64,000 bases of DNA, taken from contig NZ_JAXKVW010000009.1 of NCBI RefSeq assembly GCF_036172515.1, forward strand, positions 1 through 64,000, written 5' to 3'. This document shows positions 9,567 through 43,242 of this stretch, in pieces. Under the pieces are notes generated by a model that saw nothing but the letters and a program-made list of their open reading frames with translations, was not told where the DNA came from and did not search any database. The position numbers and the translations under genes were made by a program. Numbering within the stretch: the stretch's first letter is position 1; each line of letters begins with the position of its first letter. Source of the DNA: Flexistipes sp. (GTDB lineage: Bacteria; Chrysiogenota; Deferribacteres; Deferribacterales; Flexistipitaceae).

Positions 9567-10331
9567 TTATCCGAATCTTCCCGTGATATAATCTTCCGTC
9601 TGTTTTTTGGCCGGTTGAGTAAATATCTCCTGTGTGTCTCCAACTTCAATCAAATCACCCATATAGAAAAATGCCGTATAGTCAGAGACTCTGGCAGCCT
9701 GCTGCATGCTATGAGTAACAATTATTATCGTATAACGCTCCTTCAGCTCAAAAATCAGATCCTCAATTTTCTGTGTAGCAATAGGATCAAGTGCTGATGC
9801 CGGCTCGTCCATCAAAAGGATATCCGGCTGCATGGCTATGGCTCGTGCAATACACAGCCTCTGTTGCTGTCCGCCTGACAAATTGGTTGCCACTTCAGTA
9901 AGTCTGTCCTTCACTTCATCCCATAAACCTGCTTTGCGGAGGGATTCTTCCACGAGATCATCCATCTGAGGGCCTTTGTTGGCAATACCATGAATTTTAG
10001 GAGCATAAGCTACATTTTCATAAATACTTTTTGGAAAAGGATTGGGTTTTTGAAACACCATGCCAATTCGTTTTCTCAACTCCACCACATCTATTTTGGG
10101 GTCATAAATATCAACATCCCCGAACAAAATCCTTCCCTCTATTTTCGTATCGGGAATCAGATCGTTCATCCTGTTCAAACATCTTAAAAATGTACTTTTT
10201 CCACAGCCTGAGGGTCCTATAAGTGCAGTTACATGATTTTTCATAAAATCCAGACTTATATCATTCAGAGCTTTAAAATCACCATAATAAAAACTCATCT
10301 TTTCCACTTTTACCATTACATCGGCGGACAT
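9567..10331 (-). CDS. pstB: Phosphate ABC transporter ATP-binding protein PstB
   Basis: This cytoplasmic ATPase of the high-affinity phosphate importer has Walker [13 protein letters not shown] signature LSGGQQQRL and Walker [13 protein letters not shown], all intact. At 254 residues it has normal PstB length, and PYENVAYAP-like and [11 protein letters not shown] segments are typical of PstB. GGAGG sits 4 nt before ATG 10331. It is last in pstS-pstC-pstA-pstB. No phoU follows, unlike the E. coli operon, so any PhoU must be encoded outside the window. It is expected to be induced by phosphate starvation through the PHO-box-like sites upstream of pstS. Confidence 0.97.
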
Positions 10332-10361
10332 TTTTCCTCCAGTAAAAATCGTATCATTTGT

Positions 10362-11525
10362 CTACCATTTCTTTTCGTTCTTATTTCTCAACCAGATAGC
10401 AGCCGCGTTTAATGTTAATAAAATTGCAAGCAAAACGATAATGGCAGCAGCAGTCCTCTCGACATAAGCTCTCTGGGAAGCTGAAGCCCATGTATAAATC
10501 TGGGCGGGAAGAACTGTTGCAGCATCAGTGAACGAATCCGGAGCTTCCGGAATATAAGCCATCATCCCCACAAGCAGCAACGGAGCTGTTTCGCCCATGG
10601 CTCTGGCAACCCCTAAAATTGTACCGGTCAGAATTCCCGGTACAGAAACAGGCAGTATGTGATGCCAGATCATCTGCCATTTTGATGCACCTACAGCCAG
10701 CGCACCGTGTCTGATCGAATCAGGTACAGCCTGAAGCGAGGCTCTGGTGCTGATAATTATAACAGGAAGTGTCATAAGAGACAGCGTCAATCCTCCCGCC
10801 AAAGCTGAAGATCTGGGCACACCGAAAAAATTGATAAAAACTGCCAACCCCAGTAAACCAAATAAAATGGAAGGTATGGCCGCCAGGTTATTTATATTAA
10901 CCTCAATGGAGCGGGTAAGCATATTGTCAGGAGCGTACTCCTCAAGATATATTGCAGACATTACCCCGATAGGTACACTGAAAAGAACAGTCAGAATTAT
11001 TACATAAAGCGTTCCCACGGCTGCAGAAAAGATACCTGAGATTTCCGGAAGCTTTGAGTCACCGTTGATGAAAAAATATTTATTAAAGGCAAGCTCAATC
11101 TTCCCCGCATTCTTCAATTTGTCTATTTTCTGCTTGTCACTGCTGCTGAGACCGTTAGGCTGGCCTTTAATATACTGATCCACAGAGTCCTTTGCCACAA
11201 CCCAGCGTGTTACTGTTTTGCCCATCAAGTCAGGGTTATTCTCCACTTGTGAAGGAATCATTCTCACAAAACCGTGACTGACAAAATCCCTCACTTCCTC
11301 GTTTACTGCCAAAGGGGGGATTTCCACGGTTTCCATTGTATATGTGACTTTCGCTTTTATCTCTGTTTGCATAAAAGCGGTATAACCTTTACTGACAATA
11401 TCAGTAAAAAAGAAAATCAAAAATCCCAGAGACAGAAGCAATGCTGCAAAACCGTAAAATTTGAAGCGTTTTTCCGCTCTGTACCTTTTTTTATTTGCCT
11501 GCGAAGACTCAATAAGCGATGACAT
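10362..11525 (-). CDS. pstA: Phosphate ABC transporter permease PstA, with extended N-terminus
   Basis: This inner-membrane permease is a partner of PstC. After a first membrane helix (about residues 27-47) comes a periplasmic insert of roughly 110 residues, followed by the conserved five-helix transport core with the EAA-type loop (ALAVGASKWQMIWHH). The insert explains the length of 387 compared with about 290 in E. coli, and resembles the DUF3333-type PstA N-terminus. ATG 11525 is chosen. An in-frame GTG at 11531, two codons upstream, is possible but leaves less room for an AGAG ribosome site. It lies 11 nt after pstC. Confidence 0.95.
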   Translation of the reverse strand: MSSLIESSQANKKRYRAEKRFKFYGFAALLLSLGFLIFFFTDIVSKGYTAFMQTEIKAKVTYTMETVEIPPLAVNEEVRDFVSHGFVRMIPSQVENNPDLMGKTVTRWVVAKDSVDQYIKGQPNGLSSSDKQKIDKLKNAGKIELAFNKYFFINGDSKLPEISGIFSAAVGTLYVIILTVLFSVPIGVMSAIYLEEYAPDNMLTRSIEVNINNLAAIPSILFGLLGLAVFINFFGVPRSSALAGGLTLSLMTLPVIIISTRASLQAVPDSIRHGALAVGASKWQMIWHHILPVSVPGILTGTILGVARAMGETAPLLLVGMMAYIPEAPDSFTDAATVLPAQIYTWASASQRAYVERTAAAIIVLLAILLTLNAAAIWLRNKNEKKW

Positions 11526-11536
11526 TAACACACACT

Positions 11537-12781
11537 CTATTCATATTTTTCTCTGAATTTTCTGACAATGATAGTTGATATAATATTTAAAATCAAAGTA
11601 AGTATTAGTAAAACAAAGCCGAGGCCAAATGCAGACAGTGTTTCCAGACTGTCAAAAGACTGATCGCCTGTAAGAGAATCCACAATTCTCACGGTAACTG
11701 TGGTCATACCTTCCAGTGGATTAGCTGTCAGATTGGGTCTCAATCCTGCAGCCATAACAACAATCATAGTCTCCCCGATAGCTCTGGAAACAGAAAGAAG
11801 AAATGCTGATACAATCCCCGGCAGTGCTGCAGGCAATATGACCCTTTTGGTTGTTTCGGCCACTGTTGTACCTAAAGCCAATGACCCTTCTCTGAGACTG
11901 CGGGGTACAGCATTTATAACATCATCAGAAAGTGATGACATCAAAGGAATAATCATAATACCCATCACAAGGCCCGGTGAAAGCGCATTGGTATAAGCAG
12001 CTTCCAGACCAAAAAAAGCCGCAGCCTTAACAACCAGAGGGCTTACGGTAATTGCGGCAAAAAATCCGTATACAACTGTTGGAATACCAGCCAGAACTTC
12101 AAGAAGCGGTTTCATTATTTTTCGAAATTTTGGAGTTGCATATTCAGCCAGAAAAATTGCTGAAAAAAGTCCAATCGGAACAGCAACACACATTGCAATA
12201 AACGTTATCATAAACGTACCGGCGAAAATAGGAACGGCACCAAAATCGGCAGTAGCCGCCTGTTCCCCGCCTCTGCCGGCTCCGCTCAGAAAAGCCGTAT
12301 CAGGATTCCATTTAGTTCCTGTAATAAAATTCCAGAAGCCAACAGCATCAAAAAATCTCAGCGCTTCAAATAAAATGGAAAGAACAATGCCCACCGTCGT
12401 CATAATAGAAACAAGAGATGCAGCAATCAAAGACCACTTTATAACATTTTCCACTTTATTACGTGCTCTGAAATCCGGGGATATTTTCTTTAAACCAAAT
12501 GCAAAACCTGATGCCACCAAAACAATACATGCAGCAATAAGTATAAACGGGCTTACAGAGTAAATACCGGTAACATGTAACAGACCGGCAGCGACAGCCG
12601 CCACCATCGAAGGCACACCCATAATTACCACAACAAACCATCCGTGCATGTACGGTCGGGAATGAATGGATATATTTTGATTTTCCCAGACAGATGCTTT
12701 TCTGGATGCTATAATATAGGCTATATAAGCTAACGGAACTATGCCGCCCAGCACAATAAATATAAGATTCCCCAAGCTCAA
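11537..12781 (-). CDS. pstC: Phosphate ABC transporter permease PstC, with extra N-terminal helices
   Basis: This is the second permease of the phosphate importer. It has 414 residues with three additional N-terminal hydrophobic segments before the usual six-helix core; the EAA-type loop is LALGTTVAETTKRVILP. The start is TTG at 12781. An in-frame TAA lies 6 nt upstream, no ATG or GTG precedes the first helix, and GGGAG sits 8 nt before the TTG. A stem-loop (12807-12828) separates it from pstS, which probably lowers permease expression relative to the binding protein. Confidence 0.95.
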   Translation of the reverse strand: MSLGNLIFIVLGGIVPLAYIAYIIASRKASVWENQNISIHSRPYMHGWFVVVIMGVPSMVAAVAAGLLHVTGIYSVSPFILIAACIVLVASGFAFGLKKISPDFRARNKVENVIKWSLIAASLVSIMTTVGIVLSILFEALRFFDAVGFWNFITGTKWNPDTAFLSGAGRGGEQAATADFGAVPIFAGTFMITFIAMCVAVPIGLFSAIFLAEYATPKFRKIMKPLLEVLAGIPTVVYGFFAAITVSPLVVKAAAFFGLEAAYTNALSPGLVMGIMIIPLMSSLSDDVINAVPRSLREGSLALGTTVAETTKRVILPAALPGIVSAFLLSVSRAIGETMIVVMAAGLRPNLTANPLEGMTTVTVRIVDSLTGDQSFDSLETLSAFGLGFVLLILTLILNIISTIIVRKFREKYE

Positions 12782-12806
12782 ATCTTAAACTCCCTGAAAA
12801 CTATAA

Positions 12807-12828
12807 AGAGCCGGCAAAAACCGGCTCT
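12807..12828 (-). terminator. Intercistronic stem-loop between pstS and pstC
   Basis: AGAGCCGG (12807-12814), loop CAAAAA, CCGGCTCT (12821-12828): a perfect 8-bp stem 22 nt after the pstS stop and 25 nt before the pstC start. It lacks a T-run on the minus strand. It would act as a partial terminator or as an mRNA stabiliser, making PstS in excess over the permeases, as seen in many binding-protein operons. Confidence 0.6.
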
Positions 12829-12850
12829 CCTATATATTATTTTTCTGAAC

Positions 12851-13864
12851 TTATTTCAAGTCTGATAATTGAAGCTCTTTTCTGTTTTCCCAGTTTTTCC
12901 TGACTTCTTCCCTTTTTTCCTTAGGCAGAGGTATCAAGCCTATATTTTTCAGATAGCCGTATTCCCCAATCATCTTTTCACTGAGAAAAAGATCAACATA
13001 AGCATCTATACCGGGAACTTTTCCGATATGATCTTTTTTAACATAGAAATACAAACTTCTGGATACAGGATATTTTCCGCTGGATATATATTCAGGCTTA
13101 GGTTCATATCCTTCAATTATTGCTCCCTGTATCCTGCCCTGATTTTCCTCAAGGAATGAATATCCAAATATACCAATTGCATCCGGATCCTTTGTGAGCC
13201 TTTGGACTATAAGGTTATCATTTTCACCAGCAGGCACATAAGCCCCGTCCTGACGAATCTTGGTATATTCACCTCCGTAAGCAGGAATTTCCTCGGAAGC
13301 AGCCTCCATGACCAATCCTTCAAAAGCATCTCTTGTCCCTGAAGAAGTCGGAGGACCGTATATCAAAATTTTAGTGTGCGGCAAATCAGGATTAATCTCG
13401 TCCCAGTATTCATAAGGATTCTTCACCAGTTTACCATTTTTCGGTACTTCAGCTGCAACAGCCAGAAGTATATCTTCTCTGCTTAATTTAAGTCTTTCGG
13501 CCTTTTCATTGTTTGCCAGAACAATTCCGTCATATCCGAAAACCACCTCAATAATTCCGTCAACTCCGTTGTCCATGGCCCTTTTAAACTCTGAAACCTT
13601 GATACGTCTTGACGAATTGGTAATATCAGGTGTGTCAATACCGTCTCCTGCCCATGTTAATTTGTGTCCGCCACCGGAACCTGTTGACTCGATAACGGGG
13701 GTGGGATACTTGGTTGTTGCCCCGAATTCTTCTGACACATAACTTGCAAAAGGATAAACCGTACTTGAACCCACAATTCTGATCTGATCCCTAGCCGAGG
13801 CGAAACTACTGGCGAAAACAACCATTGCCACAGCTATCAGCATACTTTTCAACAAACGTTTCAT
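12851..13864 (-). CDS. pstS: Phosphate-binding protein PstS
   Basis: This periplasmic receptor delivers phosphate to PstCA. It has a signal peptide MKRLLKSMLIAVAMVVFASS with a cleavage site near ASA-RDQ, then the PstS core. The core contains the phosphate-binding IVGSSTVYPF and TGSGGG loops, and SSGTRDAFE in the second half. The start was moved to ATG 13864: GGAGG lies 7 nt upstream, and the 11 extra residues of a longer reading frame (to 13897) would bury the signal peptide. It is first gene of the pst operon, with PHO-box-like repeats 76-115 nt upstream. Confidence 0.96.
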   Translation of the reverse strand: MKRLLKSMLIAVAMVVFASSFASARDQIRIVGSSTVYPFASYVSEEFGATTKYPTPVIESTGSGGGHKLTWAGDGIDTPDITNSSRRIKVSEFKRAMDNGVDGIIEVVFGYDGIVLANNEKAERLKLSREDILLAVAAEVPKNGKLVKNPYEYWDEINPDLPHTKILIYGPPTSSGTRDAFEGLVMEAASEEIPAYGGEYTKIRQDGAYVPAGENDNLIVQRLTKDPDAIGIFGYSFLEENQGRIQGAIIEGYEPKPEYISSGKYPVSRSLYFYVKKDHIGKVPGIDAYVDLFLSEKMIGEYGYLKNIGLIPLPKEKREEVRKNWENRKELQLSDLK

Positions 13865-13923
13865 GTAAGAACCTCCTTTTTTTAAACGTTTTTCCAATCA
13901 TTTGCCTGATTGTGAATGATTAA

Positions 13924-13979
13924 ATTAATAGTGCTAACATGTTATATATATGTAATGTGCATGTAAAATTTTTGTAAAA
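13924..13979 (-). promoter_or_regulatory. Four-unit PHO box and -10 upstream of pstS
   Basis: On the minus strand, half-sites TTTTACA (13979-13973), TTTTACA (13968-13962), CATTACA (13957-13951) and TATAACA (13946-13940) repeat every 11 bp, each separated by 4 bp. TATTAA (13930-13925) follows 9 nt later as a -10 box. Tandem 7-bp sites at 11-bp period abutting a -10 is the known design of PhoB/PhoP-activated promoters. The TT(A/T)ACA words match the Bacillus-style consensus better than the enterobacterial CTGTCAT. The regulator gene is not in the window. Confidence 0.75.
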
Positions 13980-14053
13980 TGAGGAAACTATGGTTTTCTC
14001 AATAAATTTTAAAGACACTGCATACTTCATGTAATTAAAATACTTAAAGATTA

Positions 14054-14086
14054 TTTGACAACTTCCTAACAATTTTCTGATTCTTT
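14054..14086 (+). promoter_or_regulatory. Weak PHO-box-like pair upstream of phoH
   Basis: TTTGACA (14054-14060), 4 nt, CCTAACA (14065-14071), 9 nt, then a poor -10 (TTCTTT). The layout matches the pstS site but base matches are weak. The repeat element at 14134-14237 lies between this site and the phoH start. TTGACA at 14055-14060 may simply be a sigma-70 -35. Confidence 0.25.
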
Positions 14087-14133
14087 TTGTTTAAAATTAT
14101 AAAAATAAAACTTCAAGTTTCGTACTTTGCTAT

Positions 14134-14237
14134 GTCATTGCGAAACCGAGCACTTAAGAATCTAAGTGCTCGGTTGTGGCAATCTCAAAATAATATAAAA
14201 AAGAGATTGCTTCGTCGTTACAACTCCTCGCAAAGAC
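14134..14237. repeat. 104-bp miniature inverted-repeat element
   Basis: Ends are GTCATTGCGA (14134-14143) and TCGCAAAGAC (14228-14237), an inverted repeat with one mismatch. Inside are a perfect 13-bp stem AACCGAGCACTTA/TAAGTGCTCGGTT (14144-14156, 14163-14175) and the inverted pair GCAATCTC/GAGATTGC (14179-14186, 14203-14210). A shorter version without the 13-bp stem is at 1181-1231. No coding capacity. It sits in the phoH leader. Confidence 0.6.
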
Positions 14238-14296
14238 TTGCAACAGGAACAATGAGCAAAACGTAATAAAATATTTAATAATTTGAAGGTGGCATT

Positions 14297-15685
14297 ATGA
14301 CTAAATCAAAGAAAAAAAATTTTGTACTCGATACAAGCGTAATTCTTCACTCCCCGTATTGTTTAGATTCTTTTGAAGATAATAACATTTACATCCCTGC
14401 AATAGTACTTGAGGAGCTGGATAATCTCAAAACAGGCTTTGATTCAAGAAGCTACAACGCAAGGGAATTTATTAGGCAGCTTGAAAATTACAGGTCTACA
14501 GGGGATCTGCTGGGAGGAGTAAAACTCAAAAACGGAGGCAAGCTCTTCGTCAGATTCCACATAGAGGATAAGGGTGCACCTATAGAATTAGGGAAAAATA
14601 TTAATGATAACTTTATCCTCAAAGCAGCACTAAATTTAAAAAGTAAATCATCCAGAACAACTGTTTTGGTATCAAAAGATGTAAACCTCAGAATTAAAGC
14701 CGAGGTTATAGGGATAAAAGCTGAAGATTACTACCACGAGAAATCTTTTCAATGCTTAAACAGTAACGACATAATGTACGTTTCTTCAGATGAAAATATC
14801 GATAAAATATATGAAAAAAATTTTATCGACATAGATGAGATTGAAGTCCAGTTTAACCAAAACTCAGAGACTTTGCCCGACTATGCAATAGTAGCTTCCC
14901 TTATGAACAGTAAAAAAACAGCTCTGTGCCGTATTGTTAATGAGAAATCATCGAAAAAACTGGAACTTCTGAAAAATCAACCGGCAAATTTCTATATATC
15001 ACCTCTTAATTATAAACAAAAATTTCTTTATGATGCCCTTATGCGGGATGATATCAAACTTGTATTTGCAATCGGCTTCGCGGGGACAGGGAAGACACTG
15101 TTATCAATTGCTTCCGGATTATCACAGGTATTAACCCAAAAATACAAAAAAATGGTGATAACACGGTCTCATGTGCCTATGGGCAGAGATCTGGGATATC
15201 TTCCAGGGAATCTTAACGAAAAGCTGGAACCGTGGCTTAAACCCATTTATGACAATATGGAGCTTATTCTTGACAATATAAGCGAGGACAAACAACCTGT
15301 AAGTAAGGATAACGCACTTCTGAAAAAACATATGAATGAATTGACACTGGATTACCTGAAAAGTACAAATTTTGTAGAGGTGGAAGCAATAAACTTTATC
15401 AGAGGCAGAACTTTCCACGACTCCTTCCTGATAATCGATGAAGCGCAAAATCTTACACCTCATGAAGTTAAAACAATAATTACCCGAGCGGGGCAAAACA
15501 CTAAAATAGTTATGACAGGAGATCCTTCCCAAATAGACAACCCTTACCTGGATGAAAAAGATAATGGTTTGGTTTATAGTTCTGAGAGGTTTAAAAAGAA
15601 TAAATCAAAGATTGCAGCCTCGATTATACTCGATAGATGTGAAAGAAGCGAAATCGCCCAGGAAGCCTCCGATTTTCTAAATTAA
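14297..15685 (+). CDS. PIN-domain PhoH family ATPase (PhoH2-like)
   Basis: The N-terminal PIN ribonuclease domain (about 1-140) opens with NFVLDTSVILHSP and a conserved acidic EELDNLK. The C-terminal PhoH ATPase (about 235-462) has Walker A GFAGTGKT and Walker B LIIDEAQN followed by TGDPSQID. At 462 residues this is the PIN-PhoH fusion (PhoH2 type), which in other bacteria acts as an RNA helicase/ribonuclease. The name PhoH comes from phosphate-starvation induction in E. coli, and its place divergent to pstS fits that. GAAGGTGG lies just before ATG 14297. The target RNA is unknown. Confidence 0.92.
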   Translation: MTKSKKKNFVLDTSVILHSPYCLDSFEDNNIYIPAIVLEELDNLKTGFDSRSYNAREFIRQLENYRSTGDLLGGVKLKNGGKLFVRFHIEDKGAPIELGKNINDNFILKAALNLKSKSSRTTVLVSKDVNLRIKAEVIGIKAEDYYHEKSFQCLNSNDIMYVSSDENIDKIYEKNFIDIDEIEVQFNQNSETLPDYAIVASLMNSKKTALCRIVNEKSSKKLELLKNQPANFYISPLNYKQKFLYDALMRDDIKLVFAIGFAGTGKTLLSIASGLSQVLTQKYKKMVITRSHVPMGRDLGYLPGNLNEKLEPWLKPIYDNMELILDNISEDKQPVSKDNALLKKHMNELTLDYLKSTNFVEVEAINFIRGRTFHDSFLIIDEAQNLTPHEVKTIITRAGQNTKIVMTGDPSQIDNPYLDEKDNGLVYSSERFKKNKSKIAASIILDRCERSEIAQEASDFLN

Positions 15686-15687
15686 AT

Positions 15688-15885
15688 GGAAGAGTAGAAG
15701 AGTGGAAGAGTGGAGGAGTGGTATGTTAGTGCTAAGCATTAAGTTCTAAGTGCTAAGTTTACCATGTTAAACCAGCTTTTATGTTTAACTGGGGTGCAAA
15801 GTGCTAAGTTTATTTAAACTATGAATAACAACGAATAACGTTGAACCTTGAACGTTGAACGTTATATGTTGAACGTTTTTTGCGT
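15688..15885. repeat. Composite short-word repeat spacer
   Basis: The spacer holds, in order: purine-rich GGAAGAGTGGAAGAGTGG-type repeats; TTAGTGCTAAGCATTAAG and related TAAG heptads; an inverted pair GTTAAAC/GTTTAAC (15766-15772, 15783-15789); another GTGCTAAGTTT; and GTTGAACCTTGAACGTTGAAC-type repeats. The reverse complement shares words and partial order with the spacers at 47574-47756 and 53326-53480. The middle part aligns with 35290-35345. There are no ORFs. It lies between convergent phoH and the secreted protein gene. Confidence 0.55.
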
Positions 15886-15891
15886 TTCTTT

Positions 15892-17904
15892 CTAAAATAA
15901 ACTGGAAAGTCCTAATATGTTTTCAAAATCCCATATGTTCATAAAAAAAGCGTTAAACTGCTCCCGCCTCAGCTGTTCCATCTCCCTTTTCCAGAAAAAA
16001 AGATTTGAAACAGGGTAAAGGTATCCGAAACCGTAAGATGTAAAGCTGTCAAATCTTTCTGATATATATCCATCAAATCTGTAATATCTCTTTTGCTCTT
16101 TTACCAGTTTAAGTGCACTCTGATAAACAAAAGACATTTCTGTCATTTTCGCATTATATCCTTTTATATTTCCCAAAGATTTATATGCGGAAGCTGTAAG
16201 CAGCAAATATTTAAATTTAGCCCTCAATGCTGTCACTGTAAGGGCATTGTTCAGCTCGTCAGCTAAATCTGACAACACTTTGTTCTCAATATCATCAATT
16301 TCCCTATCAATTAAACTGCTGAGGGTTATTGCTTGCTTGTAAAATTCTTTCAGCATCATGATATTTTTATTCTCCGCTATATTTGCGGCATTTTTTGTGT
16401 TCATTGACAAAATCTCTTTCATGGTAAATACAGGTCTCGGCTGGAATCCTCTGTTAAAAGGCGGGGGAAGTTCTGAAAAAGGCGCTGCTGCCGGCAAATA
16501 TTCAAGCAGCTTTTCATCAATCAAAAACTCCATCTGCAGATCAAGTGATTTGCCGAACAAGCGTGATAATAGATTTTTACCAAATAAGAATTCGAAAATA
16601 TTAATTTTCTCAGAGCCTGGATTTTCTGTGTTCCCAGTCCATGACCATTTTGCCACAGCCCAGTCAATTAACCAGTACCCCCATTCCCAGCCCGAAGAAA
16701 ACGTCAAATGTCCGGCTATATCTTTACCTTTTAAAAGCATTATATCATTCCACCTAGAAGTCAGATATGGTAAAAACAAATTGGGAATTGAATTATCGAA
16801 TGTAACCCAGTATGAAGACTCTGGCCAATACCATACATCTCTTTCTCTGTTATAATGCAAAAGTTTGCTGTACATAAACCGAAAATTCTTATTTTCATAG
16901 GCGGGGGCATAGTTGTCCTTAAGGGCATAGCACATAACCGTATGAATCAATATTCCGGTATTATCGCTCATTATATTACAATTACCGTCATGTAATATTC
17001 GTTTTTCATCTTTTATTACATGTGTTGCAAGAAAAACCTTGCTTGAATAATCCCTCTCAATTTTTCTTATCAGGTATTGTATTTCGTCCGAATGTGTAAC
17101 CCTTAAATCCGGCAAAAATTCTCCCATGGTGGTATCAATGGAAACAAAATCCCAGTCGGACTTGAACAACATTGAAAGTTTCTCGTCGATCTGCCTTTTA
17201 TAATTATTCTTAAACAGCGTAACAAACTGAAAAGCATTCTGCTGTATCATGCTGAATGACGTCATTATGCCTGCCTTCACCCCATAATTGTGTGCTCTTT
17301 CAACAAGTTCAGGAGCATAATCCGACCATTTTTCCAAATTCACAGTCCGTAAAAGATAAAACTGAAAAACATTTTGACCGTTTCTTACAAGCCATTTCAG
17401 ATAATTGTCTATTTTCTCCATAGCCCCTGCTCTCCAGGGTGCATGCAGATATTCAGTAAGTTCAGTGGGATGAAGTGTATGCAGATGAAAGCCGCGATTC
17501 TTAAAGTTAGGATATTTATTATAGCTTATATTCTCCAATAAAATTCTGCGGGGAATTACAGTTTGTTCCGGATGTACAAAACGAAAACCTGCGGCATCCT
17601 GAAGAAAAGAGTACACACCGTAAACAATATTCTGTTGAGTACTCCCGGAAATTTTTATTTTCCAGTAACTATTGGTCTTAATAACCGATACTTTAAAACC
17701 GTTTTTAATTTTTTTATTAACTTCCAAGAAAAAAATAAGCGGATATCCCGCCTTTGTTCTGTCCAAAAGGTCGGCTGAGTCTGAAATAGCATTTGACAGC
17801 GCCGAAATAACAGTCAGATTATCACTCAAATGAAAAAACGTTTCAGCGCCAAAAGAAAATTTAGCCAAAACCAAAAACATCAAAATAATCAATATTTTTC
17901 TCAT
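15892..17904 (-). CDS. Secreted glycosidase-like protein, family uncertain
   Basis: 670 residues with a signal peptide (MRKILIILMFLVLAKFSFG-A), so probably periplasmic or secreted. Residues about 25-115 resemble the small alpha/beta domain that precedes the catalytic barrel in GH20 and GH67 glycosidases (YGVYSFLQDAAGFRFVHPE). The following approximately 350 residues look barrel-like, with WYWPESSYWVTF and HLTFSSGWEWGYWLID rich in aromatics. The last approximately 180 residues are helical. I cannot place it in a numbered GH family or point to catalytic acids. It is monocistronic, convergent with phoH and divergent from the PHP-glycosyltransferase gene. It may act on surface or environmental glycans; this is inference. 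Confidence 0.6.
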   Translation of the reverse strand: MRKILIILMFLVLAKFSFGAETFFHLSDNLTVISALSNAISDSADLLDRTKAGYPLIFFLEVNKKIKNGFKVSVIKTNSYWKIKISGSTQQNIVYGVYSFLQDAAGFRFVHPEQTVIPRRILLENISYNKYPNFKNRGFHLHTLHPTELTEYLHAPWRAGAMEKIDNYLKWLVRNGQNVFQFYLLRTVNLEKWSDYAPELVERAHNYGVKAGIMTSFSMIQQNAFQFVTLFKNNYKRQIDEKLSMLFKSDWDFVSIDTTMGEFLPDLRVTHSDEIQYLIRKIERDYSSKVFLATHVIKDEKRILHDGNCNIMSDNTGILIHTVMCYALKDNYAPAYENKNFRFMYSKLLHYNRERDVWYWPESSYWVTFDNSIPNLFLPYLTSRWNDIMLLKGKDIAGHLTFSSGWEWGYWLIDWAVAKWSWTGNTENPGSEKINIFEFLFGKNLLSRLFGKSLDLQMEFLIDEKLLEYLPAAAPFSELPPPFNRGFQPRPVFTMKEILSMNTKNAANIAENKNIMMLKEFYKQAITLSSLIDREIDDIENKVLSDLADELNNALTVTALRAKFKYLLLTASAYKSLGNIKGYNAKMTEMSFVYQSALKLVKEQKRYYRFDGYISERFDSFTSYGFGYLYPVSNLFFWKREMEQLRREQFNAFFMNIWDFENILGLSSLF

Positions 17905-17954
17905 AAGAAATCTTTATATATGTTTAAAGTGGAATTTTTAAGCAATTTGTTGTC

Positions 17955-20622: not shown

Positions 20623-20625
20623 GGT

Positions 20626-23741: not shown

Positions 23742-23742
23742 T

Positions 23743-29512: not shown

Positions 29513-29513
29513 A

Positions 29514-32214: not shown

Positions 32215-32223
32215 GAGAAAATA

Positions 32224-34709: not shown

Positions 34710-34714
34710 AAATA

Positions 34715-35260: not shown

Positions 35261-35289
35261 TAAACTCCAAGAAAACATAGCCGTATTTT

Positions 35290-35420: not shown

Positions 35421-35489
35421 AAAATGAAAATACATATTTACCATACTCAAACAGATGCAACCTGGTATAAAAGTTATATATCGTTTAGT

Positions 35490-35915: not shown

Positions 35916-35950
35916 TTTAATCCCCTGTAAGTTTATTATAAATTATTTTA

Positions 35951-36838
35951 CTATAACTGATAATCGAATCTCTTCATCCACCTGTTGCAGTGTCTTTTAA
36001 GTTGTTCAAACATCTTGTTATCCCAGTCTTTAAAATTTGGAAATTTCCCTTTAGACCTTGAGTGTACCTTTTTATTAAGAAGGTCCGGTTTTAAATCATA
36101 ATCATAAATTTCTGAGTTAAAATTTGTTGCAAATTTAAGCATATCTTCAAGGTAAGAAGTATCCTCTCTGTCAAAAATATCCTCAAAACGGTAAACCCTA
36201 AAATTATCTTTCCCTTCCATTGTATTTATTACATGCTCATTCAGTTTATTGTAAAACCAGCAGTATTTTTCAAATTTGCTCATCCTTTTCCACTTCTTTG
36301 CCCAGTTGTCATCAGAGAAATCCATTGCAGTTGGGCTTAACTTTAGAAGCTTTTCATCAAACGGTCCGTATAAATAGTATTCAAAGGTATTCAGAGCAGA
36401 CGTTACCCATTTTTTAGGATCCCTGACGATATGGATAAATTTTGCATTTACAAATACTTTATCGATAACCTCCAGTATCCCGTAAATATGCCCGCTTGAT
36501 TCCACATAAATATCTTTAGGTGAGCTGGATACAAAATCCTTCCGCATATCTGCTACATAATCAGCTGTTTTTTCACTTTCAAGTTCACCTACCATGTATT
36601 TCCGGCTTAATTTGAACATACAGTGCCTATGAGAAAATTGCCCGGCAGTCATATTGTAAAAACCGAAATCCCGAACCTCTTTAATAAAATCCTTAGGTCT
36701 TGTTATCCATGGACTACCCGGTTCATGGTAGGCAGTGGCATCCTTTACCATTAAACTTAAATTTTTAGCCAAAAACTGAGTTCCCGTCCTGCCGGTAGAA
36801 GTTATAAAAACAGACGGCTTGGTAATCTTGTTATGCAT
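35951..36838 (-). CDS. PAPS-dependent sulfotransferase
   Basis: 295 residues. The PAPS 5'-phosphosulfate loop is VFITSTGRTGTQFLAKNL at the N-terminus. The 3'-phosphate site is FIHIVRDPKKWVTSALN in the middle (RDP with a serine 7 residues on). These two motifs define the sulfotransferase superfamily (Sulfotransfer_3-like). It has no signal or membrane helix, so it is cytoplasmic or membrane-peripheral. Its start overlaps the stop of the glycosyltransferase gene (TAATG), so the two proteins are made together. This suggests the acceptor is the glycosyltransferase product. The acceptor is inferred, not shown. Confidence 0.85.
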   Translation of the reverse strand: MHNKITKPSVFITSTGRTGTQFLAKNLSLMVKDATAYHEPGSPWITRPKDFIKEVRDFGFYNMTAGQFSHRHCMFKLSRKYMVGELESEKTADYVADMRKDFVSSSPKDIYVESSGHIYGILEVIDKVFVNAKFIHIVRDPKKWVTSALNTFEYYLYGPFDEKLLKLSPTAMDFSDDNWAKKWKRMSKFEKYCWFYNKLNEHVINTMEGKDNFRVYRFEDIFDREDTSYLEDMLKFATNFNSEIYDYDLKPDLLNKKVHSRSKGKFPNFKDWDNKMFEQLKRHCNRWMKRFDYQL

Positions 36839-37998
36839 TATACAACCCTTTTCAATTTTTGTTTCAATTGAGAGTAGTACAGTTTTTCAACCTTTTGTCC
36901 AAAAGCAGTATCGGAAAATTTTTCAGCACTTTTCACAGCATTGTTTCTCCATAAAGTTAGATCATTTGCCGACACAGCCTGCAAAACAACCTCAGGCAGT
37001 TCAGAGTCGCTGTCGAAAAAACATCCGTTATATTTATCCTCCACAACATTTTCCAGATTGCTGTCATATTTAGCAATCACAGGTAACCCTGAGGCAAGGG
37101 CTTCAATATAGGTGAGCCCTTGTGTTTCCGATGTGGAGGCACTTATAAAGAAATCCGCCATTTTATAATATTTATCTATCTCAGTATATTTCACTTCACC
37201 TGTAAACACTATGTTCTCTGAAATTCGGAGCTTCATACTCAAGTTCTCAAGATTGAATTTTTCATCTCCGTCTCCGGCAATGACCAAAAATATTTCCGGG
37301 TTTACTTTGACAATTTCAGGCATCGCTTTAATCAGGACATTTATATTCTTTTCTTTTGCAAGTCTTCCAACAAAGAGCAAAATCTTCACACTTCTGCTGA
37401 TTCCCAGTTTATCCCTGAAACTGTTATAAATTTCTGAATCAGGATAAAAACGCTTTATATCGATACCTGTGGGGATCACATTTAACTTACTTTGCACACC
37501 GTAGTCCTTTAAAATTCCCGATGTTTTTTCCGAAGGGGCGATGACACAATCACTTTTATTGCAGATAATACGGCTCAATTTCCTGACAAGTTTTACAGCA
37601 TATCTGTCACCAACACCTTTAGTAACATAGTGGGTATAGTCCTCATACATGGTATGATAAGTATGTACAAGCGGAAGATTTAATTTTCCTGCAACAATTC
37701 TCCCGAAGGTTCCTATGGAAAATTCCGTATGTGTATGTATTAAATCAAACTTCTCCCTCTTTATCATACGTATAGTTCTATAAGAATAAAACATTGCCAC
37801 CCGGTGTTCTTTCTGCATGGGAAATGTTATACTTGAGAGTCTAATGACATCTGTTTCACTATCTGCATTAGGTACCTTAACAGTAATAATCACAACTTTA
37901 TGACCAAGCCTTTCCAATTGTGATTTCAGGATACCGATTGAAGTAACAACACCGTTCACCTGGGGATAATAAGTATCTGTAAAAAAAGCAATTTTCAT
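36838..37998 (-). CDS. GT4 glycosyltransferase, resembles diacylglycerol glucosyltransferases
   Basis: 386 residues. The N-terminus FFTDTYYPQVNGVVTSIG, middle FSIGTFGRIVAGKLNLP and HTYHTMYEDYTHYV, and donor site ETQGLTYIEALASG match GT4 enzymes that transfer a hexose to 1,2-diacylglycerol (the family of monoglucosyl- and sulfoquinovosyl-diacylglycerol synthases). In several bacteria such enzymes are induced by phosphate starvation to replace phospholipids. AGAGG sits 5 nt before ATG 37998. It is the first gene of GT4-sulfotransferase-ArsC, with PHO-box-like repeats upstream. A glycan acceptor other than lipid cannot be excluded. Confidence 0.88.
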   Translation of the reverse strand: MKIAFFTDTYYPQVNGVVTSIGILKSQLERLGHKVVIITVKVPNADSETDVIRLSSITFPMQKEHRVAMFYSYRTIRMIKREKFDLIHTHTEFSIGTFGRIVAGKLNLPLVHTYHTMYEDYTHYVTKGVGDRYAVKLVRKLSRIICNKSDCVIAPSEKTSGILKDYGVQSKLNVIPTGIDIKRFYPDSEIYNSFRDKLGISRSVKILLFVGRLAKEKNINVLIKAMPEIVKVNPEIFLVIAGDGDEKFNLENLSMKLRISENIVFTGEVKYTEIDKYYKMADFFISASTSETQGLTYIEALASGLPVIAKYDSNLENVVEDKYNGCFFDSDSELPEVVLQAVSANDLTLWRNNAVKSAEKFSDTAFGQKVEKLYYSQLKQKLKRVV

Positions 37999-38018
37999 AT
38001 AAACCTCTTTATTTTATT

Positions 38019-38073
38019 AATTTAGTAACTTTTTGTAAAATCAATATCAAATAATTGTTATATTTCAGTGAAA
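38019..38073 (-). promoter_or_regulatory. PHO-box-like promoter of the GT4-sulfotransferase-arsC operon
   Basis: On the minus strand, units TTTCACT (38073-38067), TATAACA (38062-38056), TTTGATA (38051-38045) and TTTTACA (38040-38034) repeat at 11 bp. TAAATT (38024-38019) follows after 9 nt. Two units are identical to units of the pstS site (TATAACA, TTTTACA) and two are degenerate. Order and spacing to the -10 are as at pstS. Confidence 0.45.
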
Positions 38074-38113
38074 ACTGCTTAAAGGAAACATCTTGAAAAG
38101 AAATTCATTAATA

Positions 38114-38157
38114 TTTTGCAAATTTTTAACATTTTTTTAACATAGAGGTGCAATTGT
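38114..38157 (+). promoter_or_regulatory. PHO-box-like promoter of the ppx-ppx-ppk operon
   Basis: TTTTGCA (38114-38120), TTTAACA (38125-38131) and TTTAACA (38136-38142) repeat at 11 bp. A poor -10 (AATTGT, 38152-38157) follows after 9 nt. It faces away from the GT4 site at 38019-38073, so the 180-nt divergent region would serve both operons. Confidence 0.45.
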
Positions 38158-38178
38158 TAGACAAAGGGGTAAAAATCG

Positions 38179-39699
38179 GTGAATGACAAAAACCTGACAA
38201 TAGGAATAATAGACCTTGGTTCAAATTCCATCAGACTTCAGATTGCAAATGTTTTTGAAAAGAGTTACCGCATAGTGCATGAATACAGGGAAATCGTACG
38301 AATTGGTGATGACCTTTTCAAATACGGTTTTCTCACAGAACATTCTGTGAATAAGATTTATGCATGTTTTACGGACATAAAAAAGATACTGGAAAGTTAT
38401 AGTGTAGGAATTATAAGAGCAGTTGCCACTGCGACACTCAGGGAACTGAAAGAAGGTTATGAAATTGTTCAGGAAATAAAATCAAGATATGGCATAAGTC
38501 TGGAAATTATAAGCGGTGAAGCAGAAGCAAAATTGTCCTACCTTGCAATTTCCGGCAGTTTTCAAACAGATAAATATAATGCAATAATAACAGATATTGG
38601 CGGAGGAAGTGCAGAGTACACTCTTGCACTAAAAGGGGAGATCGTAAATATAACAAGCAAGAAACTTGGTTGTTCACGCTTAAAAAATATATTTCTGCAT
38701 CATAACCCTCCTGAAATAGCAGAAGTCTATAAATTAAAGCAGCATATACAGGAAGAAGTAGAAAATTATGGAGATTATCATATCGACTTAGTAGTTTGCA
38801 CTGGCGGTACAATCAATAATATTGCAAATATCTATTATATTTCATCAAATAAAGATGAAAAAACAAAAATTAAATACATACCACGTAAATTTCTAAAAGA
38901 TTTCATAAACAAAATCAGATATATGGATACTGAAAGTATAAGAAAGATAAAAGGTGTTGAGCCTAAAAGGGCTGATATTCTATTACCCGCAGCTATAAAC
39001 ATCGAAGTTTTGCTTTCAAAATCTTCATTCAACGGCTTTTATACATTTACCGGCGGACTGAGAACCGGCTTGATTATCGATACACTGAATTCAATGAATA
39101 TTACTCTGCCTTTTCAGGATTTAGGCGAGGATATATTTTACTCCCAGCTGATAGAAATAGGAAACAAATTTCAGTTTGAAGAAGAACATGCCCGGCATGT
39201 TGCTTTCCTTTCGGAAAGATTTTTTGATGAGCTAAACAAAAAATGGAAGCTTGATAACGAAAACAGAAATATCCTTACCGCAGCAGCAATTCTACACGAT
39301 ATTGGAAACTATATCTCCTTCTCCAAACATCATAAACACTCATATTATTTAATAAAAAATTCCGACATTGCAGGTTTCAATTACAGACAGAAATTAATGA
39401 CTGCCCACGTTGCCAGATATCATAGAAAAAATCTGCCCAAAAAAAGTCATCAGATTTATGAAGATCTGGACAGCAAAGATATAAACATTGTAAAGAAGCT
39501 GGCAGCCATACTCCGGGTTGCTGATGGCCTGGACAGAGGGCATAAAAAATTTATTTCGGATGTTAATATCAAGATTACAAAAGACAATATTACCATTAAT
39601 CCTTTATCTGATAAAAATATCATTTTGGAAAAAAAAGCATTCGAATTAAAGAAAGATATGCTTGAAAGTGTTACAGGAAAGAATCTGGAGATATTATGA
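38179..39699 (+). CDS. ppx: Exopolyphosphatase/pppGpp phosphohydrolase with HD domain
   Basis: 506 residues. The Ppx/GppA actin-like fold (1-300) has both phosphate loops (GIIDLGSNSIRLQI, ITDIGGGSAEY), the catalytic-glutamate loop IISGEAEAKLSY and CTGGTINNIANI. The HD domain (about 320-506) has AAILHDIGNYI. This is the long Ppx type, hydrolysing terminal phosphate from polyphosphate or the 5'-phosphate of pppGpp; the choice cannot be made from sequence. The start is GTG 38179 with AAAGGGG upstream. It overlaps the next gene by 4 nt. It is first in an operon with a second Ppx-like gene and ppk. Confidence 0.92.
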   Translation: MNDKNLTIGIIDLGSNSIRLQIANVFEKSYRIVHEYREIVRIGDDLFKYGFLTEHSVNKIYACFTDIKKILESYSVGIIRAVATATLRELKEGYEIVQEIKSRYGISLEIISGEAEAKLSYLAISGSFQTDKYNAIITDIGGGSAEYTLALKGEIVNITSKKLGCSRLKNIFLHHNPPEIAEVYKLKQHIQEEVENYGDYHIDLVVCTGGTINNIANIYYISSNKDEKTKIKYIPRKFLKDFINKIRYMDTESIRKIKGVEPKRADILLPAAINIEVLLSKSSFNGFYTFTGGLRTGLIIDTLNSMNITLPFQDLGEDIFYSQLIEIGNKFQFEEEHARHVAFLSERFFDELNKKWKLDNENRNILTAAAILHDIGNYISFSKHHKHSYYLIKNSDIAGFNYRQKLMTAHVARYHRKNLPKKSHQIYEDLDSKDINIVKKLAAILRVADGLDRGHKKFISDVNIKITKDNITINPLSDKNIILEKKAFELKKDMLESVTGKNLEIL

Positions 39700-41213
39700 A
39701 AAACGGTATTTTTGCAACAATTAACGTGGGAGCTAGCGCTCTTCGGATGCAGATATCAGAATTTATCGACCATAAAGAAAGAACATTGGAATACCTTATA
39801 AAACCATTAAAATTGGGTAGAGATACTTTTTCCAAAGGCTATATTACTCTGGAAAATGTCCACAATGCCACAGAAATCCTGGGGAATTTTTCTGACAAAT
39901 TTAAAGAATATAACATTAAGAATAACTATAAGGCAATTTGTACAAGCAGTGTAAGAGATGCTGAAAATAAATACTTTTTTATAGACCATGTTCGTATCAA
40001 AACAGGGATTAAACTGGAGATAATCGATGAGACGGATGAGCTGTTTGTAAAAAGTTTGGGAGTAAAAAATGATATAAAGGATTTTCAAAAAATGGAGGAA
40101 AAAGGGCTTCTTTTTGTAAATCTTGCCAGCGGAAACATAGGCATTAACCTGATAAAAAAAGATTTACGGCTGTTTTCTGCTGCGCTGCCTTTCGGAAGCC
40201 TGAGAGTCTGCGAATTTTTTAAGGGTGTTAATGAAGATCTGAAATATCGTGCTTATGAACAGTACATTCATAAGATGCGACATCATATAGAAACTACCTG
40301 CAGGAGAATAGATTCTGTTAAATATTTAGTGGGATCCGGAAGTTCAATTAATCTTATAATTGAAGTTATGAAGCCATCAAACTTCTCCATAGATAAACGT
40401 TCCATTAAAAAACTTTATGATAAAACAAAACGATTATCAACAAGCGAAATAACCGGGCAACTCAATATAAACAGCTACTACGCAGAAATTCTCAAGCCTA
40501 CATTATATGTTTATTTATCGCTCATGGATCTGGTAAAAACAGATGTTTTATATTTCAGTAAACAAAGTTTTCCCACTCAATTGACATTGTATTATACCAA
40601 AAACATAAAGGAAAAAAAACTTAACAGGAAATTTATCACCAACATAAAAAATTACGCATTGCGGTATGAAACGGATGAAAAACATGCAAATCAGGTGGCA
40701 AAATTCAGCAAAAAAATATTTAATAAACTTAAGTCCCTCCATTCGCTGAAATCAAAAGATCTTTTAATTCTGGAAGCTGCAGCTTTACTGCATGATGTAG
40801 GCTATTTTATTGGAATTAATAACCATCAGGAGCATTCCTATTATATAGCTCGTGCATTCAGTATGCCCGGTTTTGATGCTGAAACAATTGATACAATTTC
40901 TACCATAGCGCTTTTTCATAGGGACAAACATCACTTAACATTTGATTCAAGATTTACATCACTTCCTATAGAAAAGAAACTCCTTATTCGTAAACTTATT
41001 GCTTTACTGAAAATAGCTGATGCGCTAGATGCCAGTCATATGCAGATTGTCAGAGATATAGAAATTAATACAAATTCAGATGGAATTACTCTAACAGCAA
41101 AAGCCCACAAAAAACCTTTTTTTGAAGAAATCACTTTTTACAGAAAAAACAGAGATTTTTTGGAAATATACGGGATTCCGATTAATTTAAAACTGGATTT
41201 GCTAAATGCCTGA
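39696..41213 (+). CDS. Divergent Ppx/GppA-HD paralogue, probably not a polyphosphatase
   Basis: 505 residues, same two-domain layout as the preceding protein but with eroded active site. The first loop is INVGASALRMQI instead of IDLGSNSIRLQI. The catalytic SGEAEA is replaced by IDETDELF. The second phosphate loop is VNLASGNIGINL instead of TDIGGGSAEY. The third is LVGSGSSINLI. The HD pair is kept (ALLHDVGYFI). It is intact in length and coupled to both neighbours (4-nt and 8-nt overlaps), so it is maintained, perhaps as a regulatory partner or an HD-only hydrolase. Function is unknown. Confidence 0.85.
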   Translation: MKNGIFATINVGASALRMQISEFIDHKERTLEYLIKPLKLGRDTFSKGYITLENVHNATEILGNFSDKFKEYNIKNNYKAICTSSVRDAENKYFFIDHVRIKTGIKLEIIDETDELFVKSLGVKNDIKDFQKMEEKGLLFVNLASGNIGINLIKKDLRLFSAALPFGSLRVCEFFKGVNEDLKYRAYEQYIHKMRHHIETTCRRIDSVKYLVGSGSSINLIIEVMKPSNFSIDKRSIKKLYDKTKRLSTSEITGQLNINSYYAEILKPTLYVYLSLMDLVKTDVLYFSKQSFPTQLTLYYTKNIKEKKLNRKFITNIKNYALRYETDEKHANQVAKFSKKIFNKLKSLHSLKSKDLLILEAAALLHDVGYFIGINNHQEHSYYIARAFSMPGFDAETIDTISTIALFHRDKHHLTFDSRFTSLPIEKKLLIRKLIALLKIADALDASHMQIVRDIEINTNSDGITLTAKAHKKPFFEEITFYRKNRDFLEIYGIPINLKLDLLNA

Positions 41214-43242
41214 TTCTCAGTTGTTTAATAACAGAGAACTAAGCTGGCTTTCATTTAACAGACGGGTCATACTCCAGGCCAGAGATGAAAATGTCCCACT
41301 TATTGAAAAACTCAAATTTCTGGCGATTTCCTCATCTAATCTGGATGAGTTTTTTATGGTGAGGGTGGGAGGATTAATAGACCATATCGCAGCCAGTTAC
41401 ATGGAAAAAGATCTTTCGGGACTTACTTCAATCCAGCAATTGCAAGAAATATCTGAGGAATGTCACAATCTCACCATTATCCAATCGGAAATTTACTATG
41501 ATTTAAAACAACAGTGCGCAAAGGAAAGAATCTATATCGAAGCGGAAATTGAGGAAAATTTTGAATGGATCGAGTCCCTTTTTTACGAGGTAATTTTCCC
41601 TGTGATATCCCCTATTACGCTGGGACCGGCAAATCCATTCCCTTTCCTGGCAAACCTGAGGTTGTGTATTCTTGTAAAAATAAAACAAAAAGGTAATGTT
41701 TACGATTCTTTGATTTTAGTCCCTGAACTGCTGGAGCGCGTTTATAAATTGGAAAAGAATGGCATAAGCTACTATTATACTGTAGAGCAAATTATCATTA
41801 ACTTTTTGTCCACCATCTACAAAGGGTATGAGATTATTGATAATTTTGTATTCAGGATTACAAGAAATGCTGATTTATCTCTGCATGATGAAGAAGTGGA
41901 AGACTTGCTGATTCTTATAGAGAAATATCTGGATAAGAGACAAAAGAGCAATGCTGTAAGATTGGAAGTAAATAAGCCGTTACCGCAGGATTTAAAGAAC
42001 AAGTTCAAAACATTTTTTGATATAAATGATTCACATATTTATGAACTGAGCCATCCTCTGGATCTGAGTTTTCTTTTTAATATAAGTGAAAATAATGAAA
42101 AATTTTATTACCCAGAGTTTAATCCTTGGCTGCCCCGGGAGGTAAAATCTAAAAGCCTCTTTGACTATCTTAAAACAGCGGATTTAATACTTTACAGGCC
42201 ATATCACGATTTCGGATTAATTGGCAATTTTATCCGGCAAGCTGCTGAAGATCATAACGTTTTAAGTATAAAGATGACCCTTTACAGAGCTAATGAAAAT
42301 TCAAAAATTATTGAATCGCTGGCAAAAGCAGCAAAAAACGGTAAGCATGTCTGTGTTATCATAGAACTAAAAGCCCGATTTGATGAAGAAAGAAATGTGG
42401 AGTGGGCAAAACGTCTTGAAAATGCAGGCTGTATCGTAACATACGGTTTTATGGATTTGAAGGTTCATGCAAAAGCACTTCTGATAGTCAGAAAAGAAAA
42501 CGGAAAAATTCAGCGCTATGTCCATATGTCAACGGGCAATTACAATGAAAAAACAGCCAGGTTGTACACTGATATTGATTATCTGACCACGGATAAGCAA
42601 ATTGCCGAAGAAACTGTTAATCTGTTTAATTATCTGATGGGTTATTCGGATGTATATAAATGGAAATTAACAGAAGGTACGGAACAAAAGATCACCACAG
42701 CGCCAAACAGTTTAAGAGAAAAATTAATGGAACTTATCGATGAAGAAATAAAAAACGCCAGAAAAGGGAAAAAAGGGCATATTATTGCAAAAATAAATTC
42801 CTTATACGACAAAGAACTCACCTTAAAACTTTATGAAGCCTCCTCAGCAGGTGTAAAAATAGAATTGATAGTAAGAGGTATATGTTCTTTAAGACCTCAG
42901 GTTAAGGGTTTAAGTGAAAATATTAGCGTAAAAAGTATAGTCGGCCGATTTCTTGAGCATCCCAGAGTTTTATACTTTTTATCATCCGGTTCACATAAAG
43001 TTTTTATTTCCACTGCAGACTGGATGGTAAGAAATCTGGACAGAAGAGTGGAACTTTTGACAGAGATCGAAGATAAAGGAAGTAAAATATTTTTACAAAA
43101 ATTACTGCAGGATAACCTAAATGACCGGGCAAAATCATGGTATATGAAAGATGACAGGTATTTTAAAATAAAACAAAAAGAAAAAACGGAATATAATTAT
43201 CAGGAAGAATACCTAATCGGGATAAATGAAATTTTGGATTAA
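41206..43242 (+). CDS. ppk: Polyphosphate kinase PPK1
   Basis: 678 residues. It reversibly polymerises the gamma-phosphate of ATP into polyphosphate at the membrane. N-terminal FNNRELSWLSFNRRVI and SSSNLDEFFMVRVGGL are PPK1 hallmarks. The phospholipase-D-like active part has MDLKVHAKALLI (phospho-accepting His) and VHMSTGNYNEKTARLYTDI. The C-terminus has MVRNLDRRVELLTEI. Normal length (E. coli 688). It overlaps the preceding gene by 8 nt, so synthesis and breakdown enzymes are co-translated from one PHO-box-like promoter. Confidence 0.96.
   Translation: MPDSQLFNNRELSWLSFNRRVILQARDENVPLIEKLKFLAISSSNLDEFFMVRVGGLIDHIAASYMEKDLSGLTSIQQLQEISEECHNLTIIQSEIYYDLKQQCAKERIYIEAEIEENFEWIESLFYEVIFPVISPITLGPANPFPFLANLRLCILVKIKQKGNVYDSLILVPELLERVYKLEKNGISYYYTVEQIIINFLSTIYKGYEIIDNFVFRITRNADLSLHDEEVEDLLILIEKYLDKRQKSNAVRLEVNKPLPQDLKNKFKTFFDINDSHIYELSHPLDLSFLFNISENNEKFYYPEFNPWLPREVKSKSLFDYLKTADLILYRPYHDFGLIGNFIRQAAEDHNVLSIKMTLYRANENSKIIESLAKAAKNGKHVCVIIELKARFDEERNVEWAKRLENAGCIVTYGFMDLKVHAKALLIVRKENGKIQRYVHMSTGNYNEKTARLYTDIDYLTTDKQIAEETVNLFNYLMGYSDVYKWKLTEGTEQKITTAPNSLREKLMELIDEEIKNARKGKKGHIIAKINSLYDKELTLKLYEASSAGVKIELIVRGICSLRPQVKGLSENISVKSIVGRFLEHPRVLYFLSSGSHKVFISTADWMVRNLDRRVELLTEIEDKGSKIFLQKLLQDNLNDRAKSWYMKDDRYFKIKQKEKTEYNYQEEYLIGINEILD

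Follow-up and report, generated by a model that had tools for sequence, protein, structure and literature searches.

The stretch of DNA analysed here, referred to below as the window, covers positions 1 to 64,000 of contig C9 (NZ_JAXKVW010000009.1) of Flexistipes sp., whose genome of 2.47 Mb is available in 31 contigs. It carries the pst operon for a phosphate ABC transporter and, next to it, phoH, a gene that fuses a PHP domain to a GT4 glycosyltransferase (PHP-GT), two putative operons headed by further GT4 glycosyltransferases (named here after their start positions, 25586 and 37998), an operon for phosphonate uptake and C-P lyase (phn), and the polyphosphate genes ppx-ppx-ppk (Table 1). 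These assignments agree, exactly or closely, with a preliminary description of the sequence, which also proposed that short repeats recurring at 11 bp upstream of these genes mark a single phosphate-starvation (Pho) regulon. Such arrays, their predicted regulator and the genomic island in which five of them lie are the subject of this work.

Table 1. Genes, predicted PhoB sites (Pho-box arrays) and island boundaries in the window; offsets in nucleotides (nt) run from the last unit to the -10-like hexamer.
Feature	Coordinates	Strand	Remarks
pstS-pstC-pstA-pstB	9567..13897	-	Pfam PBP_like_2, BPD_transp_1 with DUF3333/DUF3708, ABC_tran
pstS Pho-box array	13935..13978	-	four units TTTACA, TTTACA, ATTACA, ATAACA; 9 nt on, TATTAA
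Island	13981..43334		29.35 kb, phoH to ppk; missing from sister genome G001
phoH Pho-box array	14044..14087	+	TTAAAG, TTGACA, CTAACA, CTGATT; 9 nt, TAAAAT; score 19.5, rank 3
phoH (PIN-PhoH type)	14297..15685	+	Pfam PhoH, PIN_4
670-aa protein	15892..17904	-	N terminus signal-peptide-like (by eye); weak NAGLU N-terminal match
Distal PHP-GT site	17956..17972	+	two good units; score 12.4, rank 11
Proximal PHP-GT Pho-box array	18134..18177	+	TTTACA, TTAAAG, ATCACA, TTAATA; score 17.2
PHP-domain/GT4 glycosyltransferase fusion	18208..20622	+	804 aa
Putative operon: GT4 glycosyltransferase, GNAT acetyltransferase, DUF2334 deacetylase, flippase-like protein	21959..25586	-	
25586-operon Pho-box array	25603..25646	-	TTGACA, TTTGCA, TTGATA, CTGACT; 9 nt, TAGATT; score 18.8
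Putative phnD site	25754..25797	+	TTTACA, ATTACA, ACAATA, TTAACA; 9 nt, TATTAT
Phosphonate uptake and C-P lyase operon	25793..35260	+	Pfam; NCBIfam PhnD
Putative operon: GT4 glycosyltransferase, sulfotransferase, arsenate-reductase-like protein	35490..37998	-	
37998-operon Pho-box array	38029..38072	-	TTCACT, ATAACA, TTGATA, TTTACA; score 18.2
ppx Pho-box array	38115..38147	+	TTTGCA, TTAACA, TTAACA; score 17.1
ppx, second Ppx/GppA-like gene, ppk1	38179..43242	+	Pfam, NCBIfam

The bare two-unit word TTNACA-N5-TTNACA shows no enrichment across the genome (22 matches versus 18 for the reversed control) and was rejected as a genome-wide marker; the argument relies instead on arrays with at least three units and on other genomes for comparison. 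A three-unit word with one mismatch allowed (33 matches versus 19 in the control) served for finding candidates only. Scoring relied on a unit matrix of 11 columns, applied as three units in a row and trained on 19 promoters that all come from other families of the order, with none from the genus itself; these are all nine of the other-family pstS promoters and ten of the 24 other-family phoU promoters. The trained unit reads approximately (T/C)T(T/G/A)ACA, with T or C in the last column. A second scoring, by the best three of four units, was used for phnD and for the rank list in which it is placed. The scan covered both strands of C9:1-104000 and a 360-kb sample from other contigs, upstream regions were counted per gene (91, from open reading frames (ORFs) of at least 130 aa picked by a script), and hits were judged to be inside or outside ORFs of at least 100 aa.

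The seven top places in C9:1-104000 lie upstream of phoU (29.4), pstS (24.5), phoH (19.5), the 25586 operon (18.8), the 37998 operon (18.2), PHP-GT (17.2) and ppx (17.1), and the eighth (16.0) falls within an ORF. Because pstS and phoU are orthologues of the training promoters, the independent part of the test consists of the other five arrays. Among the 91 upstream regions the seven best score 17.1-29.4, and the eighth region scores only 9.1; with 200 matrices whose columns were permuted, the mean number of upstream regions at 17 or above is 0.05 and the maximum 2. When the pitch of 11 bp is replaced by 7-10 or 12-16 bp, C9 yields 0-2 hits and the 360-kb sample 0-5. The comparison of hits inside genes with hits in promoters, suggested in the preliminary description, extends to part of the genome and uses a matrix from other families: on C9 it returns seven hits of at least 17, all upstream of phosphate or lipid-type operons and none in an ORF, versus a single one, within an ORF, in the 360-kb sample.

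The arrays of pstS, ppx and the 37998 glycosyltransferase have the 11-bp pitch and the positions originally given for them. Sites upstream of phoH and of the 25586 glycosyltransferase are likewise present, but they are not the weaker versions they were taken for, as they rank third and fourth of all places on both strands of C9:1-104000. Upstream of PHP-GT an array does exist; the pair at 17955-17972, however, comprises two good units only, and it was rejected as the main site in favour of the proximal array at 18134-18177. A pair resembling this distal site is present in the same-genus sequence L088 (by eye). Nor does a -10-like hexamer always begin 9 nt beyond the last unit, as had been stated: at least four of six matches to TATAAT occur at this offset in six of nine arrays, the last unit being chosen by us. 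Offset 9 nevertheless has the highest mean match: in the seven own arrays it reaches 4.00, with 3.86 at the second-best offset, and in 30 arrays from relatives 3.67, with 3.37 at the second-best. The fixed 9-nt spacing is therefore a tendency only.

The strongest array of those scanned, at C9:94515, stands upstream of phoU, phoB and a gene for a PhoR-type kinase, which follow one another head to tail at C9:94638-97722, approximately 30 kb beyond the window. The genome encodes a PhoB-PhoR pair with a box on the regulator's own operon, and repeats of 11-bp pitch are found upstream of pstS here and in all nine other-family pstS promoters of the training set. Three OmpR-family DNA-binding domains are encoded in the genome, one of them being PhoB.

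Comparison with relatives, in which an array means a score of at least 10 unless stated otherwise, indicates that some of these sites recur beyond the genus. The counts cover 12 phoH orthologues and 21 of 22 ppx orthologues from other families, one ppx gene with only 18 bp of upstream sequence being left out. Upstream arrays are found in seven of 11 other-family PHP-GT orthologues (shuffled sequences, 2.7%) and in four of 12 phoH orthologues (shuffled, 0.9%), and the phoH paralogue has one in one of nine cases. Among phoU promoters of other families 13 of 24 have an array, ten of these being training rows; of the 14 outside training, three score at least 14 (25.8-28.6). Individual rows include a phoU promoter without an array (L115) and a PHP-GT promoter with one (L064, 18.9). 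Where phoH directly precedes PHP-GT (G003, G010 and G021, from two families), the array is found upstream of the G010 pair only (18.6). As a control, the first 300 coding bases of the PHP-GT, phoH, phoH paralogue, ppx and phoU orthologues contain no arrays. Closer to home, the pstS array of the sister genome G001 has a three-unit score of 24.5, equal to our own, and the same-genus genome G002 has arrays at phoU (25.7), ppx (20.7), the 25586 operon (19.0), the 37998 operon (15.7) and both of its PHP-GT copies (16.7 and 18.9).

Several observations weigh against a regulon of this extent. The ten phoU training promoters were chosen by eye from 24 for a visible array, and 11 of the 24 have none by matrix score. 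The 360-kb sample of other contigs holds one hit of at least 17 (18.2), within an ORF, and no evident phosphate gene follows the strong sites C11:70118 and C3:139069 on their respective strands. In G002 phoH is without an array (-0.7), and the G002 arrays add little independent weight because identity within the island is 80-96%. The ppx promoters of other families mostly lack an array, with one positive among 21; in a subset of four the best score is 7.5, and one phoH promoter (0.4) has none either. Finally, the repeat site described upstream of phnD does not rise above chance: it scores 3.9 with three units and 8.1, rank 61, in the best-three-of-four list. It has three good units and a poor third one, and the matrix does not set it apart from the background. 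We therefore rejected phnD as a proven member, and control of phn by the Pho regulator is suggested by gene content alone; a box at phn is a common but not an obligatory feature of Pho regulons. The proposal of a single regulon across the region is supported by the arrays of pst, phoH, the glycosyltransferases and ppx-ppk. Membership of polyphosphate genes across the order was also rejected on the count of ppx promoters. As PHP-GT arrays recur in other families and ppx arrays mostly do not, Pho control of PHP-GT looks old, whereas for ppx-ppk it seems to be a peculiarity of this lineage.

The sites C11:70118 and C3:139069 were the best off-contig candidates of the three-unit word and could not be tied to any phosphate gene. 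The former (C11:70118-70134, L242:10118) has two strong units in register and a three-unit score of 20.3. A Na/Pi-symporter-like gene, with a gppA-like one after it, is found approximately 200 bp away; the site, however, is on the other strand and precedes a 61-aa ORF.

In the light of these data, the arrays very probably represent PhoB sites of a phosphate-starvation regulon that includes pst, phoH, ppx-ppx-ppk, PHP-GT and the two glycosyltransferase operons. The cell's own PhoB, encoded with PhoU and the PhoR-type kinase in one array-bearing operon of the same contig, would bind these arrays, which have three or four units close to TT(T/G/A)ACA spaced at 11 bp. With falling phosphate PhoB would occupy the arrays and activate these operons; both binding and induction are what we infer from the sites and their neighbours. 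The products of the island would then bring in phosphorus from phosphonates, handle polyphosphate and, presumably, allow phospholipids to be exchanged for glycolipids.

It is improbable that PhoB acts on pst and phoU-phoB-phoR alone, with the island arrays having arisen by chance in AT-rich promoters. The window is indeed AT-rich, the two-unit word barely differs from its reversed control, and the island arrays (17.1-19.5) score below those of pst and phoU. However, only 0-0.9% of the shuffled upstream regions from relatives score as high as 14, the five island promoters score at least 17.1 with the next region at 9.1, and four of the five arrays recur in G002 at 15.7 or more. Still less probable is binding by another OmpR-family regulator with only an indirect role of phosphate: such regulators generally bind tandem repeats and the genome has two further ones, but the arrays precede pst and phoU-phoB-phoR itself, and no phosphate gene was recognised by eye within approximately 1.5 kb of the other two.

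All predicted targets of the window except pst sit inside a block that is present in our genome and missing at the equivalent place of its close relative G001, as is typical of flexible islands. In the alignment of C9:1-104000 with G001:1918000-1975500, with identities of 92-97% across the compared stretch and lesser interruptions around C9:74-79 kb and 94.5 kb, the match ends at 13980 (95.8%) and resumes at 43335 (96.8%), with 85 bp in between in G001. Five promoters in the island carry arrays. The left break borders directly on the pst array, at its outer side, and leaves it intact; the right break lies in the last part of an ABC permease gene, the final residues of which differ. A similar permease end adjoins pstS in L054-L056 of another family (by eye), which favours insertion in our own lineage. 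The GC content of the island is 35.7%, as compared to 40.3-40.4% in the flanks within the window. We found no direct word of at least 12 bp common to 13601-14400 and 43101-43500, no tRNA gene in the window, and no mobility gene among the ORFs scanned there. REP-like sequence (CATTGCGA ... TTGCTTCGTCG) occupies 14130-14250, just inside the left end, and the same words appear repeatedly on C9 and also in the stretches sampled.

The block was presumably inserted in our own lineage. The opposite direction, in which the genus had it from the start and G001 lost it by deletion, is a separate question from the function of the arrays, and we regard it as somewhat unlikely. It would agree with the presence of island genes in G002 and with the distribution of full ppk1, which was found in 23 of 29 genomes searched, G001 being among the six without it (weak partial matches only). 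On the other hand, the permease-pstS adjacency of the G001 type recurs in another family, the GC content of the island is below that of its flanks, and phnJ is nearly missing from the phylum (three of 50 genomes). The block may also have been gained before our lineage and that of G002 parted, and then lost from G001. The corresponding part of G002 is otherwise colinear; it holds a stretch of approximately 8 kb without a match, and its PHP-GT copies sit on separate contigs (L193, L194).

Among named genomes, the PHP-GT protein has its nearest relative in Deferribacteraceae UBA1873 (91% identity); those of other Deferribacteraceae, such as Denitrovibrio and Seleniivibrio, stand at 45-46%, and those of several other phyla at 39-47%. 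The GT4 domains exceed their Pfam cut-offs, and PHP (PF02811) falls below, with 20.8 versus 26.4 bits. Residues D9, H11, H13, D56, H57, E79, H131, D208 and H210 are invariant in 18 rows from several phyla; we take them to be the PHP metal-binding motifs. A fold search was used for the PHP half because a sequence-profile search against the PDB gave no hits at E 0.01. With the model of the whole protein, the 50 PDB matches shown all fell on the glycosyltransferase half, which is like BshA, and so the first half (259 residues) was predicted alone. Its best Foldseek hit is the PHP domain of RNase AM (E 5.9e-10), and the first nine rows of VIA-align have Z of 14.5-17.3 and root-mean-square deviations of 3.0-3.9 over 180-209 aligned residues. 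According to the model, the first 259 residues adopt, among the families listed in this comparison, a PHP fold, in agreement with the motifs of the superfamily. The group-1 glycosyltransferase Dde_3613 is described as required for phosphorus-free glycolipids in phosphate-limited Desulfovibrio alaskensis (PMC5193443). Agt/Dde_3613 and PHP-GT, compared here by role alone, would both be glycosyltransferases tied to glycolipids under phosphate limitation, and they differ in the PHP domain fused to the Flexistipes enzyme; from this analogy a glycolipid role of PHP-GT under phosphate limitation is plausible.

The 25586 and 37998 operons are probable glycolipid operons. Proteins of the former match the glucosaminyl-phosphatidylglycerol (PG) synthase and flippase families NF053787 and NF053789 below their cut-offs (223.9 versus 480 and 129.5 versus 320 bits), and for this reason the operon is likened to, rather than filed with, GpgSDF of Pseudomonas aeruginosa, which makes glucosaminyl-PG (PMC12713373), and HexSDF of Clostridioides difficile, which makes an aminohexosyl glycolipid (PMC10128005). 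As these systems are described, the order glycosyltransferase, deacetylase, flippase-like protein is comparable; the 25586 operon differs by the inserted GNAT protein and by its predicted control by PhoB, HexSDF being under HexRK. In phosphate starvation a glycolipid seems a likelier acceptor than PG. A plasmid search with the 25586 glycosyltransferase returned 186 records, all below 60% identity, and no donor. The 37998 glycosyltransferase is nearest to alpha-monoglucosyldiacylglycerol synthase (NF049988; 291.4 bits, cut-off 400) and is followed by the sulfotransferase. It is tempting, if rather doubtful, to consider the whole island as a self-contained phospholipid-replacement kit under the host PhoB that would keep all head-group charges without phosphorus. 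PHP-GT would turn phospholipid or phosphatidate into glycolipid, with the PHP domain removing phosphate and the GT4 domain adding sugar, the 25586 operon would make a cationic amino-sugar lipid, and the glycosyltransferase-sulfotransferase operon an anionic sulfated one.

With respect to the remaining genes, the ATG near 13864 is the more likely start of pstS (read by eye), and the PhoH protein scores 223.8 bits against NCBIfam PhoH2, under the cut-off of 680. The 670-aa protein has no Pfam family over the cut-off; G002 retains it, flanked by phoH and a PHP-GT copy. The phn operon comprises phnD, a permease, an ATPase, phnG, phnH, phnI, phnJ, two ATPases and an amidohydrolase (phnK, phnL and phnM by position), a hexapeptide protein and a guanylate-kinase-like protein (phnN by position). 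The arsenate-reductase-like protein at the end of the predicted 37998 Pho operon (35490-35915; 122.7 bits, cut-off 174.3) would fit entry of arsenate via an induced phosphate transporter.

We found no paper in the open-access full-text literature that joins Pho box, phosphate starvation and Deferribacter, and no open-access paper that combines phosphate, Pho box, genomic island, phosphonate and lipid. Pho boxes of 11-bp pitch and pst-linked phosphate islands are already known (PMC1906773, PMC10734472). We found no description in this literature of a Pho box or Pho regulon in this lineage, of an island adjoining pst with array-bearing operons, or of a PHP-GT4 fusion that is conserved and predicted to belong to the Pho regulon, and these points are apparently new. 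A Deferribacterota lineage thereby gains a Pho box and a predicted Pho regulon that can be tested. The locus also offers an example of a nutrient block beside the resident pst promoter, whose operons bear sites of the resident regulator's type, and the conserved PHP-GT fusion and the two lipid-type operons are candidates for phosphorus-free membranes in anaerobes.

The word recognised by PhoP of Bacillus is TT(A/T)ACA, and the Flexistipes unit is closer to it than to the unit of Synechocystis. The Pho boxes of PhoB in Escherichia coli and of SphR in cyanobacteria are described as 8-bp direct repeats with a 3-bp linker, at least two in E. coli, where they lie near the -10, and at least three in Synechocystis (PMC1906773). 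The 11-bp pitch is thus common to the known boxes and to the Flexistipes arrays, and the unit is different, CTTAACCT in Synechocystis as opposed to approximately (T/C)T(T/G/A)ACA here. The predicted targets differ as well, in that they include PHP-GT and other lipid-type genes. The phosphate islands of HIMB59 are described as variable blocks at a fixed place that contain pst, phoBR, ppk and exopolyphosphatase genes or phn and differ between close genomes; their authors suggest frequent transfer and cite islands of Prochlorococcus and Pelagibacterales, among which one Pelagibacterales genomospecies has phn and pst genes in a single island (PMC10734472). Some HIMB59 islands also hold a glycosyltransferase, LpxH or diacylglycerol kinase (PMC10734472). 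A block of phosphate genes at a fixed place that differs between close genomes is what Flexistipes shares with them. In Flexistipes, however, pst is common to the sister genome and the island stands beside it, its length exceeds that of the longest pst island given in that source (18.5 kb), and it joins phn, ppx-ppk and glycolipid-type operons.

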